Origin: Apteryx mantelli
Lineage: Eukaryota; Chordata; Aves; Apterygiformes; Apterygidae
Assembly (NCBI RefSeq): GCF_036417845.1
Contig: NC_089978.1
Location: forward strand, 126,820,183-126,884,182
Length of the DNA: 64,000 nt
Direction of reading: 5' to 3'
Below the pieces are notes generated by a model. The model worked only from the letters and a program-made list of their open reading frames with translations, had not been told where the DNA came from and made no database searches. Positions 429 to 15,488 of the stretch are shown here, piece by piece (position 1 is the stretch's first letter; each line of letters begins with the position of its first letter). The translations under genes were made by a program, and so were the position numbers.

Positions 429-542
429 TGTTATTTATAATGTTGAGCAGTATCTGAACTTCTGTACTGAGATCTCCAATAAGTCCAGGGACATTTTCCT
501 GTACTTCTAGTTTTGTTGACTGAAAATATCCCAATCCCGTAT
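429..542 (-). CDS. ADGRG7: ADGRG7 exon of the GAIN-like region (TEVQILLN)
   Basis: The acceptor is ATTCCTGTAG, phase 1, 114 nt. It encodes [15 protein letters not shown] and then [12 protein letters not shown], against human VDGLNPDAQTELQVLLNMTK. The donor I chose (A|GTAAAT at 428) keeps phase 1 and ends where the human similarity fades, but it is weaker than the other donors, so this 3' edge may be off by some bases. Confidence 0.7.
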
Positions 543-3500
543 CTACAGGAATTATCACTGGATACATTAGAATTTATGGTATGTACCACTTTGTCCACAG
601 AAATCCAGCAAGATACATGGGCTTACCTCTCTGTGCAGAAAACAGAATTGTAGATGACTTTAATTTCAGTGGGACTGACTGAATTGCAGTGTTGGACTGG
701 GTGATGTTGCTGGTCAAAGAAAATTTTTCCATTGTTCTTGTGAGGCTGCATTGAAATAATGAGTAAGATAAAACTTTCTTTACCACTTTCTGTTAATATA
801 TAGCTACAGGTTCAGTTTCTGTGCTTCCTCTCTGATTTTGCTCTCCAGCATGTGAGGCAGAGTGCAGAAACTGTGTGAGCTTGCTCTAGCTGCACATGAG
901 GTCACCAGAAATCTTATTTCTGGTGTCACTTCTGAGGTCACCAGAAATCTTATTTTTGGCCTCAGGAGGCACAGGATTTGGCCTAAACTGCAGCTAGGGC
1001 AGGAGTACGGTGAAATCTAGCATATTGTCAAATTGTAATAGCTCACTAGGTAAGTGGGAAATTTCTTCTAACAAATACATGTAAATATACAGGATTCTTC
1101 ATGGAGAGAGTATGTTATAGCTTTCTCCTTCCACACACTGGATCCTGTAAAATTACTTCTGACTCATCTGAAAAGAAATGAAAATGCTGTAAGTGTTTAT
1201 AAATACTGCAGTGTGTTCTCCTAGCATCTCAGCTGGCAGGTAGGACCACTCTGTAAACTATAACATGTCCACAGGCAGTGGCATGCTACTTAAATGATTT
1301 CACCAAACTGTTGGAGCCAGCTGATGACCAAATAGGGACCTAACTCCAGAAGCCCCTACTCCTCATTCCCTATCCTCCTCTTTTTTCCAAAGCAGAAAAG
1401 TCCAGCCAAAATTTTTTCCCTGGATGTATTTCTACTGAATCAACCAAACTGCATGCTGGAGATGGATACCAAAAACATTTTGGCTCATTTGTGAACCACC
1501 TCTATATTGAAATGGAAGGTCAAATGCAGTTTACTACGTTTAATAAAAAGAGCAAAATCTAATGTCACCTTGCTGTATCATCGACAAGATTATTGTGGTT
1601 AAATTCTGTTTCATTGGCGTCCAAGAGTTGACTGACTGTAGCCATTACTGCCACAGATGCCTGAGACAAGCAGAAAATAAGGTAATATTCAATAACAATT
1701 GAAATAAATGAGCTCATGTTCTACACTGTGAATTGGCATGGTAAGACCACTTAATCAGCATTGTTTCAAGCTACACACTGGAATAAACAAAGTAGAGGAT
1801 GTCATTTGAGAGAATACAAACTTTGAGCCAATGGGTTCATAAATACCCTGATTTTATTAATTTAGACAGTAAAGATTAAATGTTGAACCTAAACATGAAA
1901 TGATGATAGCATTAGAATTTCAGATATATGCAAGTTAAAATAGCTGGTAACAAATTTCCACTCTGCTCTGAGAATGGAAATGGCAGTGATTCCACAAATA
2001 TGCACTCAGGTCCATTACTGAATAACTCAGCTTATCACCAAATGAGTGCATTTTGCTGTGTTATTATGTAAAGGTGACAGGAACCGCTCTGAAGAGTGTT
2101 CCTTCTGCTTCTGGAGGGAGGACAGAATCAATAGCGAATCACAAAGCCACAAAAATCTTACTTTAGTCTTACTAAGTCTCACCTGAGAGTCTTCTGAAAT
2201 ATTTGGCTTTTTCAAGATCTTCAGAGCACAGCTAACAGAGGCAGCGAACAGACGCAGCAGTTTGCGTAGCAGTGTTTGGGCTCTGACTAGAACTTGAGGA
2301 TCCTGGTGGAAGTTGTGGGCTTTCTGAGGACCCCCGAGGAACTAGCAGGTGATTGCTGTGAACAGGAAAGGGGAAGCTAGGCAAGGACAACTGCAGGAGG
2401 CCTTGACTTCTCCTGGGAAAAGCTCGTGGGAAAAGCTCCAGCTAGGAGTGGCTGCTGCTAACGAGCTCTCTGGGTTGCCCCTGACCAGAGGGGGTTGGGG
2501 CCTTTGATCCCAGTGGCCCTTGATGAGGGTGGGTCAAGCACCCTGTGAGTCAGTGCTAGGGAGAGGCCTATATAAGAGCCAGGCCTAGAGTGCAGTGAAC
2601 AGAGGCAGCAGTTTGTGCAGAAGGGTGTGTGAGGGGACCTTTGTTTCTGTTCCCTGTGGTGTACGCTTCCTCAAGTATGGTTGTGACACGCTGCAGAGCG
2701 CGTTCCCCAGTGGCTGTTGGAGTTGCTGTGTCAGAGGCTGGGACCCAGACCGACCCTCTGACAGTAGCTGCAGCCCTACAGGTCTCAGGCTGCAGGGAGT
2801 GCTTGGGGCCTCTCCGGGAGGCCTGGGCTGGCAGCCAGCTCTCCTGCAGGAGGTGTGCTGCTGTTGACGAGTTGTGTCGTCAGGTAAGGGAGTTACGGGA
2901 GGAGGTCAGTAGGCTGCGCAGCATCCGAGAAGCGGAGCAAGAGGTAGACAGGGTATTCTCGGAGACTGCAGCTTTGGGAGTCCCAACCCCCCACAGAGTG
3001 GAGCTGCCAGAGGGCTCTGTGCCATGTGAAACGGTACATCATAACATTGTAGAAGAAGACTGGAAACTGGTCACTCCTCGTGGGAGGAGAAGGGCTCCTA
3101 CTCCTCCTGAAGACCTGAAGCTGAAGAACAGGTTTAGTGCCCTCCAGGATGAGGAGGAGATGGGCATGGCTGCCAGGGAAGTACCTGGGACAACAGACCC
3201 TGTGCCCTGCCGGAACGCCCGGAAGAAGTGGCGGGTGACTGTTGTGGGGGACTTCCTGCTTCAGGGGATGGAGGCATCTATCTGCCGACCTGACCTCTTG
3301 TCTAGAGAGGTTTGTGGCCTGCCGGGGGCTCGTGTGAGAGATGTCATGCAAAGACTGCCAAGGCTCGTCCATTCTTCGGACTATTACCCACTGCTGCTCT
3401 TCCATGTGGGCGCCAATGACACCAAGGGCAAACTGGAGACCATCAAGCAGGATTTCAGAGCTCTGGGGATGGTGGTCAAGGGTCTGGGAGCCCAGGTCAT

Positions 3501-6500
3501 CTTCTCCTCAATCCTGCCAGTGAGGGGGATGGATGAGAGGAGGAGGAGACAGACTTTCCAAGTTAACGACTGGCTGCGCCGCTGGTGTTGGCAACAGGGT
3601 TTTGGTTTCTACGACCATGGGACCCTGTTTGAAGATCGACAACTGATGGCAAGAGATGGGATCCACCTCACGAGGCGGGGCACGTGGGTCTTTGCCAACA
3701 GGTTGGCCAACCTGGTAAGGAGGGCTTTAAACTAGGAAAGATGGGGGAAGGGGAGAGTTATAGTGACAGGGTAGCTGGCAAAAGACAGCTCAAGTCAGGA
3801 TGCCTCCAGCAGGTGAATGCAGCCAGGGAAGTGCGCATGGGATGTGGCTATGGAGGACCCTCTTTTACCCCTCCTGGGAAACCTGCATGCTCAATCACCT
3901 CCCTGAAATGCCTGTACACCAATGCACGCAGCTTGGGGAACAAACAGGAAGAACTAGAGATACGTGTGCGGTCGCAGGGCCATGATCTCATTGCCATTAC
4001 AGAGACATGGTGGGATAGCTCGCATGACTGGAGTGCTGTCATGGATGGCTACATGCTTTTTAGGAAAGACAGGCCAGGAAAGCGAGGTGGTGGAGTTGCT
4101 CTTTATGTGAGAGAGCAACTGGAATGTATTGAGCTGTGCCTAGGGGTGGATGAAGAGCGAGTCGAGAGCTTATGGGCAAGGATCAAAGGGCAGGCTAGCA
4201 TGGGTGACACTGTTGTGGGTGTTTACTACAGGCCACCTGATCAGGATGAGGAAGTCGATGAGGCCTTCTACAGACAGCTGGAAGTAGCCTCACGATCCCA
4301 GGCCCTGGTTCTCATGGGGGACTTCAACCACCCCGATATCTGCTGGAAAGACAACACAGCTAGGCACAAACAGTCCTGGAGGTTCCTGCAGAGCATTGGT
4401 GACAACTTCTTGGCACAGGTGGTGGAGGAGCCAACAAGGAGAGGTGTGCTGCTGGACCTCGTACTAACAAACAAAGAAGGACTGGTGGAAGATGTGAAGG
4501 TCGGGGGCTGCCTTGGCTGCAGTGACCATGAGATCATGGAGTTCAGGATCCTGCGAGGAGGCAGCAGGGCACCAAGTAGGATCGCAACCCTGGAGTTTAG
4601 GAGAGCAAACTTTGGCCTCTTCAGGGACCTACTTGGAGGAATCCCATGGGTGAGGGCCCTAGAAGGAAGGGGCGTTCAAGAGAGCTGGTTAATATTCAAA
4701 CATCACTTCCTCCAGGCTCAAGAGCGGTGCATCCCTATGAGTAGGAAGTCAAGCAAAGGAGGCAGGAGACCTGCATGGATGAGCAAGGAGCTCCTGGCAA
4801 AACTCAACCAGAAGAAGGAAGTATACAGAAAGTGGAAAGGGGGACAGGCCACTTGGGAGGAATATAGGAATGTTGTCAGAGTATGCAGGGATGCAACGAG
4901 GAAGGCTAAGGCCCGTTTGGAATTAAATCTGGCGAGAGATGTCAAGGACAGCAAGAAGGGCTTCTTCAAATACATCAGCAGTAAGAGGAAGACTAGGGAA
5001 AATGTGGGCCCTTTGCTGAATGGGGTGGGTGCCCTGGTGACGAAGGATGCAGAGAAGGCAGAGTTACTGAATGCCTTCTTTGCTTCAGTCTTTCCTGCTC
5101 AGGCCAGCCCTCAGGAACCCCAGATCCTGGAGGCAAGAGAGAAAGTCTGGAGAGAGGAAGACTTTCCCTTGGTGGAGGAGGAGTGGGTTAGAGATCATTT
5201 AAGCAAACTTGACACCCACAAGTCCATGGGCCCTGATGGGATGCACCCACGAGTGCTGAGGGAGCTGGCGGACATTATTGCTAAGCCACTCTCCATCATC
5301 TTTGAAAGGTCATGGAGAACAGGAGAGGTGCCCGAGGACTGGAAGAAAGCCAATGTCACCCCAGTCTTCAAAAAGGGCAAGAAGGAGGACCCAGGGAACT
5401 ACAGGCCAGTCAGCCTCACCTCCATCCCTGGAAAGGTGATGGAGCAGCTCATCCTGGAGGCCATCTCCACGCATGTGGAGGACAAGAAGGTGATCAGGAG
5501 TAGTCAGCATGGCTTCACCAAGGGGAAATCATGCCTAACCAATCTGATAGCCTTCTATGATGGAATGACTGGCTGGGTAGATGAGGGGAGAGCAGTGGAC
5601 GTTGTCTACCTAGACTTCAGCAAGTCTTTTGACACTGTCTCCCATAGCATTCTCATAGACAAGCTCAGGAAGTGTGGGTTAGATGAGTGGACAGTGAGGT
5701 GGATTGAGAACTGGCTGAATGGCAGAGCTCAGAGGGCTGTGATCAGTGGCACAGAGTCTAGTTGGAGGCCTGTAGCTAGCGGTGTCCCCCAGGGGTCAGT
5801 ACTGGGTCCAGTCTTGTTCAACTTCTTCATCAATGACCTGGATGAAGGCACAGAGTGCACCCTCAGCAAGTTTGCTGATGATACAAAACTGGGAGGAGTG
5901 GCTGATACGCCAGAGGGCTGTGCTGCCATTCAGAGAGACTTGGACAGGCTGGAGAGGTGGGCAGAGAGGAACCTCATGAAGTTCAACAAAGGGAAGTGCA
6001 GGGTCCTGCACCTGGGGAGGAATAACCCCAGGCACCAGTACAGGTTGGGGGTTGACCTGCTGGAAAGCAGCTCTGTGGGGAAGGACCTGGGAGTGCTGGT
6101 GGACACCAAGTTAAGCATGAGGCAGCAATGTGCCCTTGTGGCCAAGAAGGCCAGTGGTATCCTGGGGTGCATCAGGAAGAGTGTTGCCAGCAGGTCGAGG
6201 GAGGTGATTCTCCCCCTCTACTCAGCCCTGGTGAGGCCACATCTGGAGTACTGTGTCCAGTTCTGGGCTCCCCAGTACAAGAGGGATGTGGCACTACTGG
6301 AGCAAGTCCAGCAAAGGGCCACAAAGATGATTAGGGGACTGGAGCATCTCTCTTATGAGGAAAGGCTGAAAGAGCTGGGCCTGTTCAGCCTGGAGAAGAG
6401 AAGGCTGAGAGGAGATCTTATCAACGTGTACAAGTATCTGAAGGGAGGGTGTCGAGAGGATGGGACCAGACTCTTTTCAGTGGTGCCGAGCGACAGGACG

Positions 6501-9500
6501 CGAGGCAATGGGCACAAACTGAAACACAGACACTTCCATCTTAACGTGAGGAAAAACTTCTTCACTGTGAGGGTGACAGAGCACTGGAACAGGTTGCCCC
6601 GAGAGGTGGTGGAATCTCCTTCTCTGGAGATATTCAAAACGCGCCTGGATGCAATCCTGTGCAATGTGCTCTAGGTGACCCTGCTTGAGCAGGGGGGTTG
6701 GACTAGATGATCTCCAGAGGTCCCTTCCAACCTCAGCGATTCTGTGATTCACTGCAATATTAGCAGCAGTGGAAATACTCTGTGTGGTCAGTTGGTCTGG
6801 CATGGAAGTAAGGATCTGGGTGTTACTTGCAATAGCTGAAACATTACTGAAGTTCCCAGTTTCAACCTGTTAGAAAATTGCCATTCAGCAGAAGGAAAAC
6901 AAGAAAAGGAAAAGCAGTCAATGATTTTATAACATTCTCACATAAAATCAAATTAGACAAGTAATTGGTGGTCTAAACTGTTTCAGTCCATGTCAAGCAA
7001 ACAGTTTACACTGGAGGGCTATTTATTTTATTGGAGGGACCTTTGGAGGGAGATGAGAAACTTTTCCTGATCTAATTGAAATTTCCCATGTTGCAACTCA
7101 TGTCCATTACCTCTCATCCTAAACCTGTGCACCTCAGAGAAGACCCTGCCCTTGCCTTTCTCCAAGGCAGCAGTAAGATGTCCCCTCCACCTGCTTGTCT
7201 TCAGTTGTTTGAACTTCTGGATCTATAAGCTTCAGTAGACCATTCACTATCCCTTAAGGAAGCAGAACTGCCTGTGTTGAAAAGCTGTGAGAGGAACTTA
7301 AGAAGTATCATACGGAATAAATTAGTTCTTCTCAATATGGTGCTCATAAACTGCACCGGGAACATCAGCCTCACTTCCGTACACTGCATATAGTGTCAAA
7401 TTGGAATAAATGTAGAAAACAGAAATAAAACATTCAGTGCTGGAGACACTGATGAGAATTGGTAGAAGCTCTAGGTGGGTCCAGTTACCACTTAATGGGT
7501 AGAGCATAAATGTCTGTAATATTTTAAGAATGCAAACACAAAAATTGATGAGGAATTATCTCTATGTGAAGAATAGCTAGGTAACATGAACACTTAAAGA
7601 CAAGGAAAATTTGCTAATTATGAGGACAATTTTCTTATTATGTTATGGAGACCAATAACAAGTTATCTTTTTTCTAATCCAGTGATAAACTCAATGGATA
7701 GCTTAAATAACTGAATTATTCTCAAATTGTTAATATTGGGAAAATATCAAAATCAAGATTAATTCAGCCATTAACATATGAAGTGTTTTCAAATCTCTGA
7801 GTAGCAGGAAAGAAAGCTGAACATGTTGCATAGAAAGAAAAGAATTTTGCACTTATAATAACTGGAGATATATGGTTTGACTGGAAAACATCTGCATGTG
7901 CACCATGAACATGCAGTACATTGTGAACACCTATGTTCACTAGTCTTACTTCTGACTTGTGGCATCACCTTGTTTTCTAAGTAAATATTTGTACTTACAG
8001 GAACAAAATCCTTTTAAACCGATGCATTCTTGATTACTAACATATAGACATCTTCCTCAGATGTCCTAATATTCACCTTTGTAAGAACAGGAGTTGTCTT
8101 AGAGTTCACTAGATGGCAGTACAACGTTAAAAATCATAACAAAAAACCCAAATAACTAATGGCAGCAGAATAACCTGAAGTTGCAACTAAATACTTTTAA
8201 TCTTTTAGTGAGGGCTAGATACTGGGAAAGGATAGCCTTGATCTTGATTTGTCATATCAAAAGATAAAGACAGGTGAAGTGTTGGGTTGGAAATATAATA
8301 TTCATGCAAAAAAAGCATGGGGAGGAATTGACTGTTTCTTACTTAAAGGGGCTGCGGCAGGTTTTTTTTTTTTTTTTTTTTTAATTGGGACTAGTGCTAA
8401 GGAGCAGAAGAGCAGAACTGGGAGAAGAGGAACAGTCCCTGTCTGTCATGGGTTCAATCATGCTCAGCACACCAGGTTTCACAGGTATTGCAGAGCTAAG
8501 CCTTAAAGCAAGGCTGAGTGACTTCTGGATTTTATCAGGAAGAGCTTGTCATTCATACGGGAGATTTTGCCTTTGAATTGCAGGGGGACAAAAGTGTCTC
8601 ATCCTTGGTCAACTAATCACAGGCCTGAATGGAAAGGCTTTGCTCTTAATCCTTCCTGACATGTCGGTGTTACCATTGCTTTCTTCCCTCATGCCGGTCT
8701 TGTCCAAATGCCTTTCAGTTGCTCACTAATTTGGTGTCCCGGGTCATCCTCGCTGCTGTTCTGCAGTGTTTGCTGTGACCTGGGCGCTGAAGAATTCCCA
8801 GTCCGATTAACAGATGTAAAATGGGATGCTGTGTTCAGGCAAAACTGAGCAAAATAGAAGAGTCACCATTCGAAATTCAAGTCATTTGCAAAGCAGGCAC
8901 ATGCCAGGAATGCTGCTGAAAAGGCTTTGGTGGTTAATTTTTCTTGATGCAAAGTTTTAAGAAATGTGGATAGCTTACAAACACAAAATATGTGCTGCCT
9001 CAGTTACCTGTTGAGTTTTGGGGGATTTTTTGGGGGGATGATGCTGTAGGATCTTAGCCACTTTTTAAATAGTACATCAAGATATAACTTAAGATTACCT
9101 GTGATGCTAGGGAGTCCAGATTTTCATTGCAATTCAGAATTTGGGGGGGTTGTAAAGTAGGAGTTTTTCCCACTCTGGAGCACATCCGGATTGCTATTGA
9201 ACTGTTACCTCTAATTTCATAAAAGCAGAAAGATCTGGATTTAGTACAGAAGCACTTGCTCACATGCACATGGCCTCACTGGGACATGACACTCCATCCA
9301 GTGTTATCCGCATGTGTGTCAGCATTACAAGTGACCATCAGTTATTTAACTAACTAATTGTTGTTCTTCTTAGAACATGTATTTTATATATGTATATATA
9401 TATATGCTGTTCTGTCTTTAAACAGGGAACTTGCATCTCCTGGTCTAATAATCTGACGTCTTTCACAAACCTTACATTTACTTTGGGGAAGGAGAAGAGA

Positions 9501-12500
9501 ACAGAAAGAAACACATACCATTCACAGTGTCAGGTTCACATTTTTCTGCAGAATTGTCGTATTTGCCCACTATAATCTGTTGAAAGGTAAGGTTTTTTAA
9601 AATGTCTTCAGAAATGTTCGCTGTGTAAACACTGACTTCACAGAAATTAACTGCACAGAAGGAAAAAGCATATATCCGGATCAAATGTTTTTAATACGTG
9701 GAGCAATTTTCAAAAATAAAATATAGTTGAGACCATAGAAACTCATTAAGTCTTTTGCCAAAGTGACTGGAAAGCAGTTAGGTAAATCTTGCCTAAAACA
9801 AAACTGTTGAGATGCTGCAAGGGATTTTTATGTCATTGCCAAAGCCCTTGCTTTTTGCTCTCCGTACTATTTTCACTGCTTTGGTCTTAGAAAATTTAAA
9901 AAAGATTATTATTTTTCACTTCCAGAATCTTGTTTCACCATGAGTAATTAGATTTGGTAGTCTAATGCCACAGGCTACAGCAGAGGGCAAAAATATAAAT
10001 TTGCTCCAAACGAGGTTAGAGCAGGTCATGGGAGAGACTGTGCTGGCGGCTCTGAAACGTGATGGTTCGGACGCAGCTCATGGCTTGGGCAGTGGCTGCC
10101 CTGCTGCCTGCTGGCATCTGAACCAGGGGGCAGGGGAGGCTCCCCCTGAGCTCGCCCATACACTATACGCTTTCTAAGTGCCTGATGCCAGCTACTACTA
10201 AAGGCAGGATGATGAGCTAAATCGATCTGTGGCCTGACCCACCATCCTGTGATAACTTAACACCAACTTCACTTGCCATGCTGCAAATGCTGGAAAAAAA
10301 TGTTAGTCTGTTGAAGTTCTGTCAAAAGGCTACAAAGCACAGGCAGAAAATTTTTGCTTGGTCTTAGGGTTGGTAATATCCTGCTTTTGCTAACTTTTGC
10401 TAATTTGGACCACATTTCAGCAGGCAGGAATGAGTCAAAGAAGCATATTTATGGGTGGGTCCTGAGGGGGCTGAAGAGCCCTGGCCTGGTCTCCACGTTC
10501 TGGGACAGGCTTCCTGGCCAAGTCACATAACTTTCTTCACGTCTCATTTTCTGTAGGGTCTCCGTTTCCCATGACATGACAATACTTGTACTCTCCCTGG
10601 CACAGACAATCTGCCTTGTTTGCCATCAACACGCCCTGTCAGCTCACATTCAGCTTGGTGTCCCCTGTCATTCCCAGGTCCTTTCCAGCAGGGTTGCTCC
10701 TCAGCCAGTCAGTTCCTCATCTGTACCAATGCCCCAAGCGCAGAGATTTGCGCTTGGCCTTGCTGGGTGCTGTGAGGTTTCTCTTGGCCCAGTTCTCAAG
10801 GTCACTCTGAATGGAAGCTCTGCCATTAAGTGTGTCAACCATATCTCCCCCCCCACCGCCAAGTACAGCATTGTCCTCAGCTTTACTGAGAGTTCATACT
10901 GTGTCATCATTCAGATCATCGATGAAGACATTGATGAAGACAACACCGGCAACTTTCACAGGTGACAGACAGCAGCCCTAAAGCAACATCAGCCAAGTCT
11001 TTCAGCACTCTTGGAATAATCCCATCTAGGCCCATGGATGTGAATACTTTTGTGGTGCTGCTGGCTTCCTTCTGATAGATGAAAGCCAGGAATGAATTGC
11101 TGCATGCATGCATGAACATGTATGCATTCAGACATGAGCACATATTCAAGAGCTATCTTTTATCTTTCCCATTACTCAAGCTTTCGACGCCCTTCTGAGC
11201 AAACATGCGAGTTCATCTGCCAAAGGTGCCACTGTGCAGGGAGACACATGACAGGGGGTATTCACATGCCAAGTGACATGACAAACTTCATAAGCACTGG
11301 CCACAGAGCCGGTTGTTGCCTGGAAAGTGTGAGTTGGGCATCGTTACCAGCTCCTGTGACAACAAGCCAGCACCCTTCTAGCTGATGTGGAGCCCCCCCT
11401 CCAGTTGCAGGAGTGAAAAGATGCAGCACTGGGGCAGTGGAGCCTGAAACGGGAGTTAAACAGGCCAGTGCTGTGCCAGGCACAAGACATTTGACTCATC
11501 TGAAACCAGCACCAGGGGCAGCAGGAGCTGAGGACGAGCATTATCCTGCAGGATCCTCTGCTGGATAGTGTCCCTTTAACTCTGGCCAATCCTGATGTAG
11601 CCACTGAGGTCTTGATCAGATTTTCAAGATGTTCAAACAGAGGAATTCAAGCAAAGGCCAAATTGGCTAGAAACAGGCCATGGTCAGTTGAAACTCATAA
11701 TATCTTTCCCAGATATACTACTCATTTAAGAGAATGACAGAAGTGGATGAAACGTCTTGCCTAGAAAGTAGAAGCATGTCAGTGCTTGCACGGCAGACCC
11801 TCCAGAGCAGGTCTCAGGAGAGGGGAGACACATGAGAGCCCCCCCAAAGCAGGGGCTGGATTCACAGAAATGACACCAGCTGCTTATGGTATGGTGCTTA
11901 TACTAACCTAGCTCACAAAGCAAGCCCACCCACTCTTCTGGGCAAACGCAGGCCCCATCTTGGCAGACTCCCTCGTTGAGGCAAAAGCATGGAGGTAAAA
12001 TGGATTCTGTAGTTTCTGTGTAAATAAAGAAACAAATATATATATATATGTGTGTGTGTGTATATGTATATAACTATGTATTTAGTAAAATATATATGTA
12101 TATATTAATTTGCTGAAGGAAAGGAGCAAATGTGATGCTGATTTACCTGGAAGTTCAGTTAAAAAATATTCCATTCTGCGATCCACAGTCTAGCCCATGT
12201 GCTGAATCACTAGCTCCTTCCTACCCTCCCCCCAAAATGGCATGAATGTGGGGTTAAAGCTTTCAGAAATTACTTCGCGTTGCAGGAATGGTGTCATGAG
12301 CCTCCGTTCTGCAAAAGGCTCATGCTATTAAACTCATAAAAAGTCCAGATTGCTTCTGCAAGATTTCACAGGGAGCTACAAGGCAAAAGAGGGCTGCAGA
12401 TTGCCCAGCGCTGAGAGAGCCAGACTGGTAACAGAGAGGGGGATAATCGCACCTCCAAGAATTGCACAGAGATATTCTGGTTTAAGCCAGTCATTTGAGG

Positions 12501-15488
12501 ATAAAGCAGATAAAAATCCATGCCCCAGTCCCAGCCATAGCTTCTATTCGCACTCCAGGATAGGTGCTAATTTTTATTTTGTCTTTTGGCAGGAATGAGC
12601 AGACTTTGAAGCAGTTGTTACACAGGCTGCCGCAGCTTCAGGAAACAACTGACTATATTTTCTATTTACAAACTCAAAAAATGCATGATAGAAGCAATAA
12701 TGGAAAAATCACAGTTCTTGGAAATTTCTGAGTATCCCATGGTATTTGCTGTGCTTAGAAGCTCTGAAAATGTTAAGGTTTCTTAAAAAAGAGGCTGGCA
12801 AATCTTGAATGGAGAAGGGGTATTCTGCAGCAGGAATTACGGTGGAGAATGAGCTAGTGGACCTCAAGCTTTGGGAGATGGGACCGAGACTTGGAGGATC
12901 CCTAGGGCCTAAGGCTTTCTCTCGGTTTATCTAACCCTTTCCCTAGCTGGAGGCATGGAGTCTGGAATCCCTCACCATAAGATTCATGGTGGAAATTGTG
13001 TATCTGCGCATTGGATGTAATTTATGCCTTGAAATGATACAGCAAACTAAAGTTGAAGGCTGCCATTAGATCTGACATTTCAGTGTTTGTGTTTTCAGAC
13101 TCTGACAAAAGAGGAAAGCCAGAAGATTAAAAAGTAAACAGTGCTGTCAGGAACACATGTGCTAATGTTGATTGCCTAACTTCTTACTGCTTAATGGGAT
13201 TCATATAATTGGAAGTCTATCACAAACTGTAAGGGATGTGCCATGTGGCTGGGGTAATTCTGCTCTTGGCAGGCGCTGCTGGACTTTTGCTCATGTTGTT
13301 GCTATTTAGCATTTGTATTTCGGTCTTCCTCAGCTACATGACGGCCAGATATCTATGAGGACTGTGGAATAACATCTATGCGCAGCTAGGTGATGTCTCC
13401 ATTAGCTATCAGCTTTTCCAAACACGTTGTCTCTCCACTGGAAATCTTACAAAAAGGGAAGAAACATTCATGAAGCAGTTGAGATCTGGGTGGCCCAACC
13501 TAGGCAGCTGCAGGGAATGGATATAACAGGGGAACAGGGATATATGTTTGGACAGCTGTTCCTCCCTGGCCCCGCTTTGCTACTTGCTTTGTGCTGGGAG
13601 CCCTGTAGGGCCCCACGAAATAATACTCCTGAGCCTGCAGCACAGCTCCCGGCCTCTGCCTCACTCGGCAGTCACGTGCCAGCAGCAGTGTGTGAGCAGA
13701 TCACACCGCAGGGCCATCGAGCACATCCGGCACCCGGGATGGCCGGAGCAGAGCCAGGGGCTGGTGCGGCACATGCACTGGACCCTGCCTGACTGGCGGA
13801 GGAGTGGGAGAAGGGAGCGCCCACGGCAGCCTGACGCTGAAGACGTCAGAGGTGGCACTTCTAAAACCAGGCCGAGATGCGCTGTCCCCATCTGACTCTG
13901 TCTGTATTAGTTATGAGCTGCAAAAAGGAGTATAAGAAAATGGAAAGGTTAAAGAAAAAAAAAAAAAGGATAGAGCTGACATTCCAGCCATGAATCATCC
14001 CATTTTAAAGCAGAAAAGCAGAAAAGCACAAAGTTGTGAAGTAGAAACTCCAGCACTTGTAGTGGGAGGTACAGACTCAGCTTCCATAGCAGGCGCCCAC
14101 ACACAGCCTCTGCCTTACCTCTGCGTTTATTACTTAAGTGTATGCATTTTTAAATGGAAACTGTGATTCTTGCATAAACCTAAGCCATCATGAACTCATC
14201 AAAAAAAATCAAGCACCGCTGTTATTAACAAACTGTTAATACTAACACTTACAGTTAAAGTTTGAAAAAAGAGGAAACCTTACAACTGTGCCCAGCAAGC
14301 ACTACATCAGATGGGCGTGAAGGTATTCTCCACACTTGAAGTGGTTTCAGATCAACTCCAAGTCCTAGCAGCTAGTGGTCCTGCACTTGTAGAAACCTTA
14401 GGCATAAGCAAAAGCTACATTGAGAGTTAACTCCCATTTTGGGGGATTTAAGATCATCAAGGAAAACAAAGCCCTAGGCACATTCTTATGTTCACAGAGG
14501 TAGGCTATTACTGACATAAGTTAAACAATTAGTGTTTACTTATGTGCCGTTTCTTGTGCTTAGTTATGTTCCCTCCCCACAAACTTCTGATAAATCAAGT
14601 AAATATATCCCCATGTAGCCTCAGGTAGGCATTTCCCTGGGCTTCCAAGTCTCTGATCATATTTGACCTCCTGCTGGAAGAGCACCAAGAAATATCTGAT
14701 TCTTTCTATGTATTTTGAATTTGAGTTCCTACATGATTTTTGTATCATGTCAATACAGTAAGTATTTTGCTGAGAAGAAACACTAACAAGTTTTCTGCTC
14801 CAAGTTTATGCACATAAGTCTGCACTGAACTGATTTTCAGGTATATAATATGCAAACCACATACATCTATCTCCTATAGTCCTTCAAAAGAGTTTTCCAT
14901 AATGTAATAAAAATTTGAACAGGTGCAGCATATGTTTTGTTTACATGCAGTGAGTATAAGGCATATACTAAATACTTACCTGTAGAGCTAAATATTTACC
15001 CTTTAAAACATAATTTATCCAACTAGCTTGACATTTATTTCTTTCTTTTGATAAGTAAATCAGATCTCAACAAGAATAGTGATAGACTTTCAAGACATTT
15101 CTCAAAGTTGTATCAGAGGAATCATGTATACTGTAAATACATTACAAGGAAAAAACTCCAGAGACTGAGTGCCAGATTATTCTGTTTTCCAAAAAAATAC
15201 AAAGTTTGAAGGACTTAAAACATTGGTGTGAGAAGAAGGACATTTCCACTGAAGAAGCCTTGGGCACTGATGGTTCTATCAGTAATCTTGTTTAAAAAAT
15301 AGAAGAAAAGGAAAGAAAAGACAAAAACACATAGAGTTCAAATAGAGCTCAAACAGAACAGAATTATATTTATTACCTGTTTTGAACCTGATAACAAGCT
15401 GCCAAATACACAACGTCCAAAGGGTCACAGTCACTGCACAACAGATGATCCCAACCAGTACCCTTCTGTCCCAGCGGAGCAAAGGCAT
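429..15488 (-). CDS. ADGRG7: ADGRG7 (GPR128), N-terminal exons, one exon split by CR1
   Basis: Adhesion G-protein-coupled receptor G7, an orphan receptor of the plasma membrane that is mainly intestinal in mammals. Seven minus-strand exons are recognisable here: 15488-15377, 9650-9519, 9208-9099, 6866-6748 joined to 2223-2183, 1660-1569, 745-627 and 542-429. They cover the N-terminal membrane anchor and most of the extracellular region up to about the middle of the GAIN-like part. The GPS site and seven-helix domain must lie left of base 1. Adjacent exons have matching splice phases and similarity to the human protein, for example [12 protein letters not shown] against human NCNENLETLEKQ. The EGF-like exon expected between 15377 and 9650 was not found. 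All recognised exons are open except the one interrupted by the CR1. Position next to TMEM45A and LNP1 matches known synteny. Whether a functional product is still made cannot be told from the sequence. Confidence 0.88.
627..745 (-). CDS. ADGRG7: ADGRG7 exon of the GAIN-like region (MEKFSLTSN)
   Basis: The acceptor is ATTTCAATGCAG and the donor G|GTAAGC; phase 2 in, phase 1 out, 119 nt. It encodes [20 protein letters not shown] at its start and ends ILFSAQRG, matching human QMETYSLSLGN, NIAIQSANF and VRFSVQKG. The exon is open. Confidence 0.85.
746..1568 (-). other. ADGRG7 intron with a 36-bp tandem duplication
   Basis: Intron between the exons at 1660-1569 and 745-627. A unit starting GAGGTCACCAGAAATCTTAT occurs at 898-923 and again at 934-959, period 36 bases. 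Nothing else recognisable. Confidence 0.7.
1569..1660 (-). CDS. ADGRG7: ADGRG7 extracellular exon (TVSQLLDAN)
   Basis: The acceptor is CTTGTCTCAG and the donor AG|GTGACA; phase 0 in, phase 2 out, 92 nt. It encodes [20 protein letters not shown] at its start and ends NNLVDDTA. Human ADGRG7 has [18 protein letters not shown] here. The exon is open with no lesion. Confidence 0.85.
1661..2182 (-). other. ADGRG7 intron
   Basis: Intron between the CR1-split exon and the exon at 1660-1569, bounded by GTGAGA and CTTGTCTCAG. No repeat or other element recognised. Confidence 0.65.
2183..2223 (-). pseudogene. ADGRG7: ADGRG7 split exon, downstream half
   Basis: This is the second half of the CR1-interrupted exon. 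It encodes [13 protein letters not shown] and ends CAG|GTGAGA, phase 0. It aligns to human GQIFNTSRNASPEAKK at the same distance from the next exon. Reading upstream on the minus strand, the sequence leaves ADGRG7 homology at 2223 and enters the reversed 5' leader of the CR1. Lengths 119 + 41, minus the 4-bp duplicated site, give exactly 156 nt, the multiple of three expected from the neighbouring phases. Confidence 0.82.
2220..2223 (+). repeat. Left copy of the 4-bp target-site duplication (TTCA)
   Basis: TTCA at 2220-2223 recurs at 6748-6751 directly at the other end of the CR1. Removing the element and one TTCA restores an open ADGRG7 exon with the right length. Four bases alone could be chance microhomology; the exon reconstruction is the stronger argument. 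Confidence 0.7.
2224..2676 (+). promoter_or_regulatory. CR1 5' leader with TATA-like box and partial tandem unit
   Basis: A 453-base leader upstream of the probable ORF1 start. TATATAAG lies at 2569-2576. A segment of about 40 bases at 2241-2280 (GCAGCGAACAGACGCAGCAG and on) recurs in slightly diverged form at 2592-2631, a spacing of 351 bases. The element's left end therefore falls at about the same point of the unit as the sequence just after the TATA box. This fits a repeated promoter unit in which transcription starts a little downstream of each TATA, but that is inference. Confidence 0.55.
2629..3735 (+). CDS. CR1 ORF1 protein: zinc-finger-like, coiled coil, SGNH esterase-like domain
   Basis: First protein of the CR1 element, thought to bind the RNA and support retrotransposition. 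The open frame gives 368 aa from 2629; the second Met (residue 17, at 2677, [10 protein letters not shown]) is the more likely start because family-like sequence (EAGTQTDP) begins after it. Residues 55-76 hold C-x2-C and C-x2-C pairs (C55, C58, C73, C76), followed by a heptad-like coiled coil at about 78-110. Residues 201-366 form an SGNH/GDSL esterase-like domain: block I VVGDFLL (205-211), block III GAND (G261, N263, D264) and block V DGIH (D343, H346). Block I has Phe209 where the catalytic Ser of GDS is expected. The stop at 3733-3735 lies five bases before a Met codon of ORF2. Confidence 0.9.
3684..6674 (+). CDS. CR1 ORF2: APE-type endonuclease and reverse transcriptase
   Basis: The replicase of the element: it nicks target DNA and reverse-transcribes the element RNA from that nick. 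The frame is 996 aa from 3684, but the Met at 3741 (residue 20), just after the ORF1 stop, is an equally or more likely start (977 aa). Endonuclease motifs: N80 in YTNARSL, E108 in ITETWW, D213 and N215 in GDFNH, D281-H282 in CSDH. Reverse transcriptase motifs: [18 protein letters not shown], then D644 and D650 in [21 protein letters not shown], and the catalytic FADD at 730-733. The C-terminus ends [13 protein letters not shown] and a short tail, as usual for CR1. All the residues needed for both activities are visible and there is no premature stop, so the protein could be active. Confidence 0.95.
6675..6747 (+). other. CR1 3' UTR with hairpin and tail
   Basis: A short 3' UTR. CCCTGCT (6679-6685) and AGCAGGG (6688-6694) form a perfect 7-bp stem with a 2-base loop. 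The conserved CR1 end TTGGACTAGATGATCTCC follows, then CCTTCCAACC and a single GATTCTGTGA. In the family the 3' end is what the reverse transcriptase recognises; only about one unit of the usual 8-bp tail repeat is present. Confidence 0.75.
6748..6751 (+). repeat. Right copy of the 4-bp target-site duplication (TTCA)
   Basis: Partner of 2220-2223. Because the CR1 tail itself contains GATTC, the exact end of the element within these bases is ambiguous. Confidence 0.65.
6748..6866 (-). pseudogene. ADGRG7: ADGRG7 split exon, upstream half
   Basis: The acceptor (TTTTCTAACAG) precedes GTT GAA ACT at 6866. The half-exon encodes [20 protein letters not shown] and then [19 protein letters not shown], matching human ISSEVQILTSDANKLT. 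Reading then runs straight into the reversed CR1 3' tail at about 6748. It continues open to 6477 inside reversed CR1 sequence, so an unspliced read-through would add foreign residues and then stop. Together with 2183-2223 it forms one original exon of 156 nt. Confidence 0.85.
6867..9098 (-). other. ADGRG7 intron
   Basis: Intron upstream of the CR1-split exon. It holds an old antisense CR1 piece (about 7022-7200) and a run of about 20 T at 8361-8382. No exon is recognised in it. Confidence 0.65.
7022..7200 (-). mobile_element. Old CR1 fragment, antisense (end of ORF2)
   Basis: Read on the minus strand, the segment runs GGATGAGAGGTAATGGACAT, then GAGTTGCAACATGGGAAATT and AGGAAAAGTTTCTCATC. 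This is the same CR1 ORF2 stretch as 6494-6560 of the full-length copy (GGACGCGAGGCAATGGGCAC) but heavily diverged. It is 5'- and 3'-truncated and far older than the full-length copy 300 bases away. Confidence 0.75.
9099..9208 (-). CDS. ADGRG7: ADGRG7 extracellular exon ([12 protein letters not shown])
   Basis: The exon enters in phase 1 after an acceptor ending TTAGAG and leaves in phase 0 at CAG|GTAATC. It encodes [15 protein letters not shown] at its start and ends [12 protein letters not shown], corresponding to human MAVRLCSL and NCNENLETLEKQ. It is the best-conserved short block of the gene in this window. Confidence 0.85.
9384..9405. repeat. (TA)n microsatellite
   Basis: An interrupted run of TA dinucleotides in the ADGRG7 intron. 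Confidence 0.85.
9519..9650 (-). CDS. ADGRG7: ADGRG7 extracellular exon (NFCE...)
   Basis: The acceptor is CTTCTGTGCAG and the donor G|GTATGT; the exon has phase 1 at both ends and 43 complete codons. It encodes [10 protein letters not shown] at the start and CEPDTVN at the end, with the IIVGKYD segment between, matching human ANFCENSTYMGFTF and IPVGRYG. Its entry phase equals the exit phase of exon 1, so exon 1 could splice to it in frame even without the EGF-like exon that I could not locate. Confidence 0.82.
9986..10255 (+). mobile_element. Possible ancient amniote interspersed repeat
   Basis: The end of this segment (GTGGCCTGACCCACCATCCT) resembles the ending GGTCTGACCCAGTATGG common in old reptile and bird interspersed repeats. 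The rest is too diverged for me to place. Low confidence. Confidence 0.3.
10570..11090 (-). mobile_element. Diverged CR1 fragment, antisense (reverse transcriptase region)
   Basis: On the minus strand one frame reads [20 protein letters not shown], equivalent to [18 protein letters not shown] of the full-length CR1 ORF2. Further along, the antisense DNA matches the FADD/TKLGG neighbourhood (around ATCATCGATGAAGACATTGA and CTCAGCTTTACTGAGAG). Stops and gaps show it is dead. It belongs to an older CR1 subfamily. Confidence 0.8.
12037..12110. repeat. (TA)n/(TG)n compound microsatellite
   Basis: TATATATATATG followed by TGTGTGTGTG and further TA-rich sequence. Confidence 0.85.
15377..15488 (-). 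CDS. ADGRG7: ADGRG7 exon 1: start codon and N-terminal membrane anchor
   Basis: The exon starts at the ATG at 15488 and encodes 37 residues plus one base, ending at a GTAATA donor (phase 1). The protein begins [13 protein letters not shown], followed by a hydrophobic stretch of about 20 residues (roughly 10-33) and then IRFKTG. This matches the start of mammalian ADGRG7, where RVLV, a hydrophobic segment and IVIRIQRGK occur at the same places. The segment acts as signal peptide or signal anchor. No upstream in-frame extension looks coding. Confidence 0.85.

Follow-up and report, generated by a model that had tools for sequence, protein, structure and literature searches.

Absence of the adhesion receptor gene ADGRG7 (GPR128) from some birds has already been published (PMC8584163), so the loss of this gene in a further bird is unsurprising. 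Recent activity of CR1 retrotransposons is likewise known from several bird orders (Galbraith et al. 2021, PMC8665684). Here we describe a bird locus in which ADGRG7 is still present, carries several disabling lesions and has a full-length CR1 inserted in one of its coding exons. Titles and abstract openings on ADGRG7/GPR128, bird pseudogenes, chicken and CR1 exon insertions with loss of function were searched, and no publication on this event was found among them. The window, the whole stretch of 64,000 nucleotides that was analysed (G000:C1:126820183-126884182), belongs to an assembly of 1.504 Gb in 408 contigs, which is large for a bird genome.

ADGRG7 and its genomic context

The first eight exons of ADGRG7 lie on the minus strand of the window (Table 1). 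The remaining exons were read in the 20 kb to its left, using a human ADGRG7 protein as a guide to the frame. All 16 exons could be placed with GT and AG at their junctions, although exon ends were picked to fit both the frame and these dinucleotides (for exons 4 and 9 the frame-keeping AG was one of several), such that the intact splice sites are partly a product of construction.

Table 1. Features of the ADGRG7 locus and of the inserted CR1 element (positions in the window)
Feature	Position	Strand	Remarks
ADGRG7 exon 1	15377..15488	-	112 nt; start codon; hydrophobic N-terminal stretch, by eye
ADGRG7 exon 2	11908..12015	-	108 nt; EGF-like by eye
ADGRG7 exon 3	9519..9650	-	132 nt; GPR128_N (PF22257) covers exons 2-4
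ADGRG7 exon 4	9099..9208	-	110 nt
ADGRG7 exon 5, 5' piece	6752..6866	-	115 nt
CR1 insertion	2224..6751 (element 2224-6750)	+	4,528 bp net; antisense to ADGRG7
CR1 3' octamer-repeat tail	6738..6750	+	GATTCTGTGATTC
CR1 ORF2	3741..6674	+	open, 977 aa; endonuclease and reverse transcriptase domains
CR1 ORF1	2677..3735	+	open; GDSL-like domain PF13472
TTCA at left junction	2220..2223	+	also at 6748-6751; target duplication or tail overlap
ADGRG7 exon 5, 3' piece	2183..2223	-	41 nt, then donor GTGAGA
ADGRG7 exon 6	1569..1660	-	92 nt
ADGRG7 exon 7	627..745	-	119 nt
ADGRG7 exon 8	429..542	-	114 nt; exons 9-16 further left, outside the window

When the two pieces of exon 5 are joined, the 5' product of the gene matches PF22257 (72.8 bits), PF22259 (104.2 bits, positions 1-101 of 101) and PF22261 (GAIN_subdom_B, 61 bits), all above their cut-offs. 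The GPS and the secretin/adhesion-type 7TM region, read with X at the lesions described below, match PF01825 (44.7 bits) and PF00002 (139.9 bits), respectively. For the EGF-like exon 2, the sole Pfam EGF match was PF25024, which scored under its cut-off. A PDB search returned 41 sequences, comprising other adhesion receptors, class B receptors and, at the bottom, two galanin receptor chains; none of these is named ADGRG7.

TFG, located using a human TFG sequence as a guide, adjoins ADGRG7 on the same strand and was found as six matching stretches from position -24618 leftwards. The TFG exons contain no internal stop: the stop in the first matching row sits past the donor of that exon, and the same residues appear in the next exon. 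In line with the human gene order, we take the place beside TFG to be the ancestral position of ADGRG7.

A genome search with the ADGRG7 protein (382 residues; all 43 candidates scored) gave 18 matches, 10 of them at this locus with 51-97% identity. The other eight are taken as paralogs (26-42% identity); the top-scoring of these is 26% identical and the most identical 42%. No working second ADGRG7 was found in the assembly. Lacking a functional second copy, the gene can be classified as a unitary pseudogene within this assembly.

Exon 5 is split by a CR1 element

An earlier note, made from the letters of the window, had placed a CR1 inside an ADGRG7 exon, with breaks at 2223 and 6748, and had stated that the halves rejoin in frame as 156 nt with phase 0 at both ends and that every other recognised exon in the window is open. 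These observations were confirmed. The exon pieces (6866-6752 and 2223-2183) sum to 156 nt, with phase 0 on entering exon 5 and phase 0 on entering exon 6; the acceptor before 6866 is TCTAACAG and the donor after 2183 is GTGAGACT. Exons 1-4 and 6-8, seven in all, are open.

The continuity of the exon was confirmed both by the running phase and by PF22259, the GPR128 GAIN subdomain A model of Pfam. With the right half alone, translated onward into the CR1, this profile matches at residues 1-40 (37.8 bits), with residue 40 being the last before the junction. If exon 5 is joined and followed by the next exon and part of the one after it, the match spans profile positions 14-101 of 101 (99.8 bits). 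Because PF22259 crosses the joined halves to the end of the profile, the two pieces constitute a single exon rather than a chance match, and because Pfam has models specific to GPR128, this identification is independent of the human guide sequence.

The ends of the element were mapped by comparison with other copies. When positions 2200-3000 were used as a query against the genome (best 40 of 2161 candidates scored), 37 of 41 non-window matches began at query 22-30, corresponding to window 2221-2229; with the window itself counted, 38 of 42 began at query 30 or earlier, that is, at or before window 2229. For positions 6600-7000 (best 40 of 669 candidates scored), all 39 non-window matches stopped at query 148-160 (window 6747-6759), and among the 40 matches scored the window copy alone continued into exon 5. 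TTCA is found on both flanks, where a target duplication of 1-4 bp is indistinguishable from overlap of the flank with the tail of the element. Either way, the empty site comes out the same and in frame.

A rival reading is that exon 5 represents two ancestral exons with the CR1 in the intron between them, or that the inserted CR1 has itself become an intron. By eye, a minus-strand GT at 6752-6751 and AG at 2220-2219 are available, and excision between them would preserve the frame. However, the putative donor is off consensus at four of nine positions (-3, -2, -1 and +5; by eye), the ends of the element are shared by other CR1 copies, which leaves no intron sequence outside the CR1, and PF22259 continues unbroken across the joined exon up to the end of the profile, which argues against a natural boundary. 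We regard this reading as barely credible.

No empty exon 5 allele was found on another contig in a search with the flank at 6752-7300 (best 40 of 92 candidates scored). The 40 other matches to this query all fall within query 294-413. This interval, window 7045-7164, is a short dispersed repeat in intron 4 that is 75-90% identical to at least 40 other matches.

Content and age of the inserted CR1

Both open reading frames of the element are intact. The ORF1 match to PF13472 scores 35.6 bits against a cut-off of 32.9, and an esterase-like domain of this kind is typical of CR1 ORF1. ORF2 matches PF03372 (53.3 bits) and PF00078 (113.5 bits). In some other CR1 copies, the octamer-repeat tail has more units than here. 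By eye, the 5' leader contains an internal repeat, with similar stretches at 2224-2262 and 2597-2620 of the type GAACAGA..GCAGCAGTTTG.

Sites private to the inserted copy make up 24 of 4,527 columns (0.53%), the 15th lowest value among 40 copies compared; it indicates age only roughly, as the 39 other copies were chosen by similarity searches and each covers part of the element. Because so few columns are private and both ORFs are open, the inserted CR1 is judged to be young, in keeping with the recent insertion proposed in the earlier note. A dating based on the reverse transcriptase segment (1 private site in 800 columns against 11 copies) was set aside since those copies had been selected by their similarity in the segment itself.

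The family to which the element belongs is well represented in the genome. A search with the reverse transcriptase segment gave at least 39 other matches, all at 99% identity. In a search with ORF2, 44 of 47 scored copies, the inserted copy included, had no internal stop; these 47 are the top scorers of 69,291 first-look candidates and are unrepresentative of all copies. The number of stop-free copies suggests recent CR1 activity in this genome.

Two further observations were made on related copies. Relatives of the first 800 bp of the element are at most 96% identical, while many relatives of the reverse transcriptase segment and 3' end are at 97-99% (best 40 candidates per search); this contrast may mean that the element is a mosaic, or that its subfamily has few other full-length members. 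Separately, copies at G000:C1:1512480 and 1555913, 43 kb apart, are identical in the 65 bases of upstream flank shown, which are CR1-like by eye and perhaps derive from a nested insertion that was later duplicated.

Lesions in exons 9-16

Eight ADGRG7 exons lie beyond the left end of the window; lesions interrupt four of them and probably one more. Exon 9 contains an in-frame TAG, and a genome search with PF22261 likewise counts one TAG within its match. Exon 10 is 154 nt long, one nucleotide out of step with the phases of its neighbours, and its two ends lie in different frames, indicating a frameshift. Exon 12 has both an in-frame TGA, with one TGA likewise counted within the match of a 7tm_2 genome search, and a frameshift: its length of 363 nt breaks the phase of its neighbours and its last part is in another frame. 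Exon 13 contains an in-frame TGA. Exon 16 is probably frameshifted, as the part resembling the human C-terminus is in a different frame from the start of the exon; this is the weaker lesion because the resemblance to the human sequence was judged by eye and conservation of the tail is poor. Exons 11, 14 and 15 have open frames. The tally is therefore five firm lesions and one weaker one, three of them nonsense codons, and a reading frame for the whole receptor is interrupted by the stops in exons 9, 12 and 13, the frameshifts in exons 10, 12 and probably 16, and the CR1 in exon 5.

Any single lesion may reflect an assembly error at the base level. It might further be proposed that all of the 3' lesions, or the placement of the CR1, are such errors and that ADGRG7 is intact, given that the CR1 family is numerous and that numerous repeat families are a known source of misassembly. 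However, five lesions including three nonsense codons would be hard to obtain by error, the nearby TFG exons lack internal stops, the flank search described above showed no second copy among the best 40 of 92 candidates, and the junction has the form of an ordinary CR1 insertion. This explanation is thus considered very improbable.

The lesions in exons 9-16 would abolish a 7TM receptor with or without the CR1. The suggestion of the earlier note that the insertion knocked out a working receptor, or forced skipping of the exon, is therefore not upheld: lesions in exons 9, 10, 12, 13 and probably 16 would disable the receptor regardless. The decisive lesions lie within about 15 kb outside the stretch that was first read, which is a caution for the interpretation of any such window.

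Exons 1-8 are free of these lesions, every one of which falls in exons 9-16; uniform placement gives P = 0.046 for this pattern with six lesions and P = 0.077 with five. This clustering is a mild hint that the 5' half of the gene may have been kept for longer. One could suppose that this half persisted after the receptor was lost, encoding a short protein anchored in the membrane and terminated by the exon 9 stop, until the CR1 disrupted it. Apart from the CR1, exons 1-8 are open with GT/AG ends, but the P values are weak and the exon 16 lesion is uncertain, and we consider such a remnant improbable. Slightly less probable still is the more specific form, in which, once the 7TM part was lost, this lineage kept under selection a shortened ectodomain (GPR128_N and GAIN subdomain A) anchored in the membrane, which has just been broken by a very recent, possibly still segregating CR1.

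Order of events

The relative age of the insertion and the lesions was assessed from their distribution. At equal exposure, the probability of finding zero lesions in 4,002 nt of CR1 coding sequence, given those in 2,350 nt of ADGRG7, is P = 0.0026 for six lesions, 0.0069 for five and 0.0187 for four. This calculation assumes that all sites are equally prone, that each lesion is one event and that the CR1 has been unselected since insertion; the figure of 4,002 nt takes ORF1 from 2668, nine bases ahead of its ATG. Because about 4.0 kb of CR1 coding sequence is free of stops and frameshifts, the CR1 most likely postdates the majority of the lesions and would have entered a gene that was already decaying.

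The converse order, in which the CR1 came first and killed a working ADGRG7 that then acquired its 3' lesions, has some points in its favour: exon 5 is the sole broken exon among exons 1-8, and its disruption alone could suffice to kill the receptor. However, the neutral evolution of the CR1 would then go back at least as far as that of the gene, yet the roughly 4.0 kb of CR1 coding sequence is undamaged (P = 0.0026-0.0187 for six to four lesions), and its private sites amount to only 0.53%. We therefore consider this order unlikely, if less so than the other alternatives.

Based on these results, we predict with a probability of roughly 0.85 that ADGRG7 at this locus is a unitary pseudogene beside TFG that died through its 3' lesions and later received an antisense CR1 insertion in exon 5. 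The insertion and its boundaries, the lesions as read, the lack of a second copy in the searches made and the low private divergence of the CR1 are direct observations; we infer the death of the gene before the insertion, and the mechanism of insertion. Several point and small indel lesions in the 3' half (the GAIN subdomain B, GPS and 7TM exons) would have ended its function. Exon 5 would later have received an antisense copy from a CR1 family that has been highly active here; target-primed reverse transcription is the presumed mechanism, and TTCA the probable target site. The insertion thus looks like an ordinary passenger rather than a knockout event.

Comparison with described systems

The locus provides one bird's record of the decay of a gut-expressed adhesion GPCR, together with a likely order of events, and it illustrates that a gene may have been lost for other reasons even where a young CR1 sits in one of its exons. 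The inserted element is like the intact, expanding avian CR1s described in PMC8665684 in that it carries the endonuclease and reverse transcriptase in one ORF, has an octamer-type 3' tail and has many close copies; no new feature was seen in it. The gene itself agrees with PMC8584163 in its identity, its pattern of loss and its synteny with TFG. It differs from the absence described there in that the gene remains with its lesions visible, and one exon carries a CR1 that probably arrived later. The case is an ordinary unitary pseudogene that adds one instance with visible lesions.
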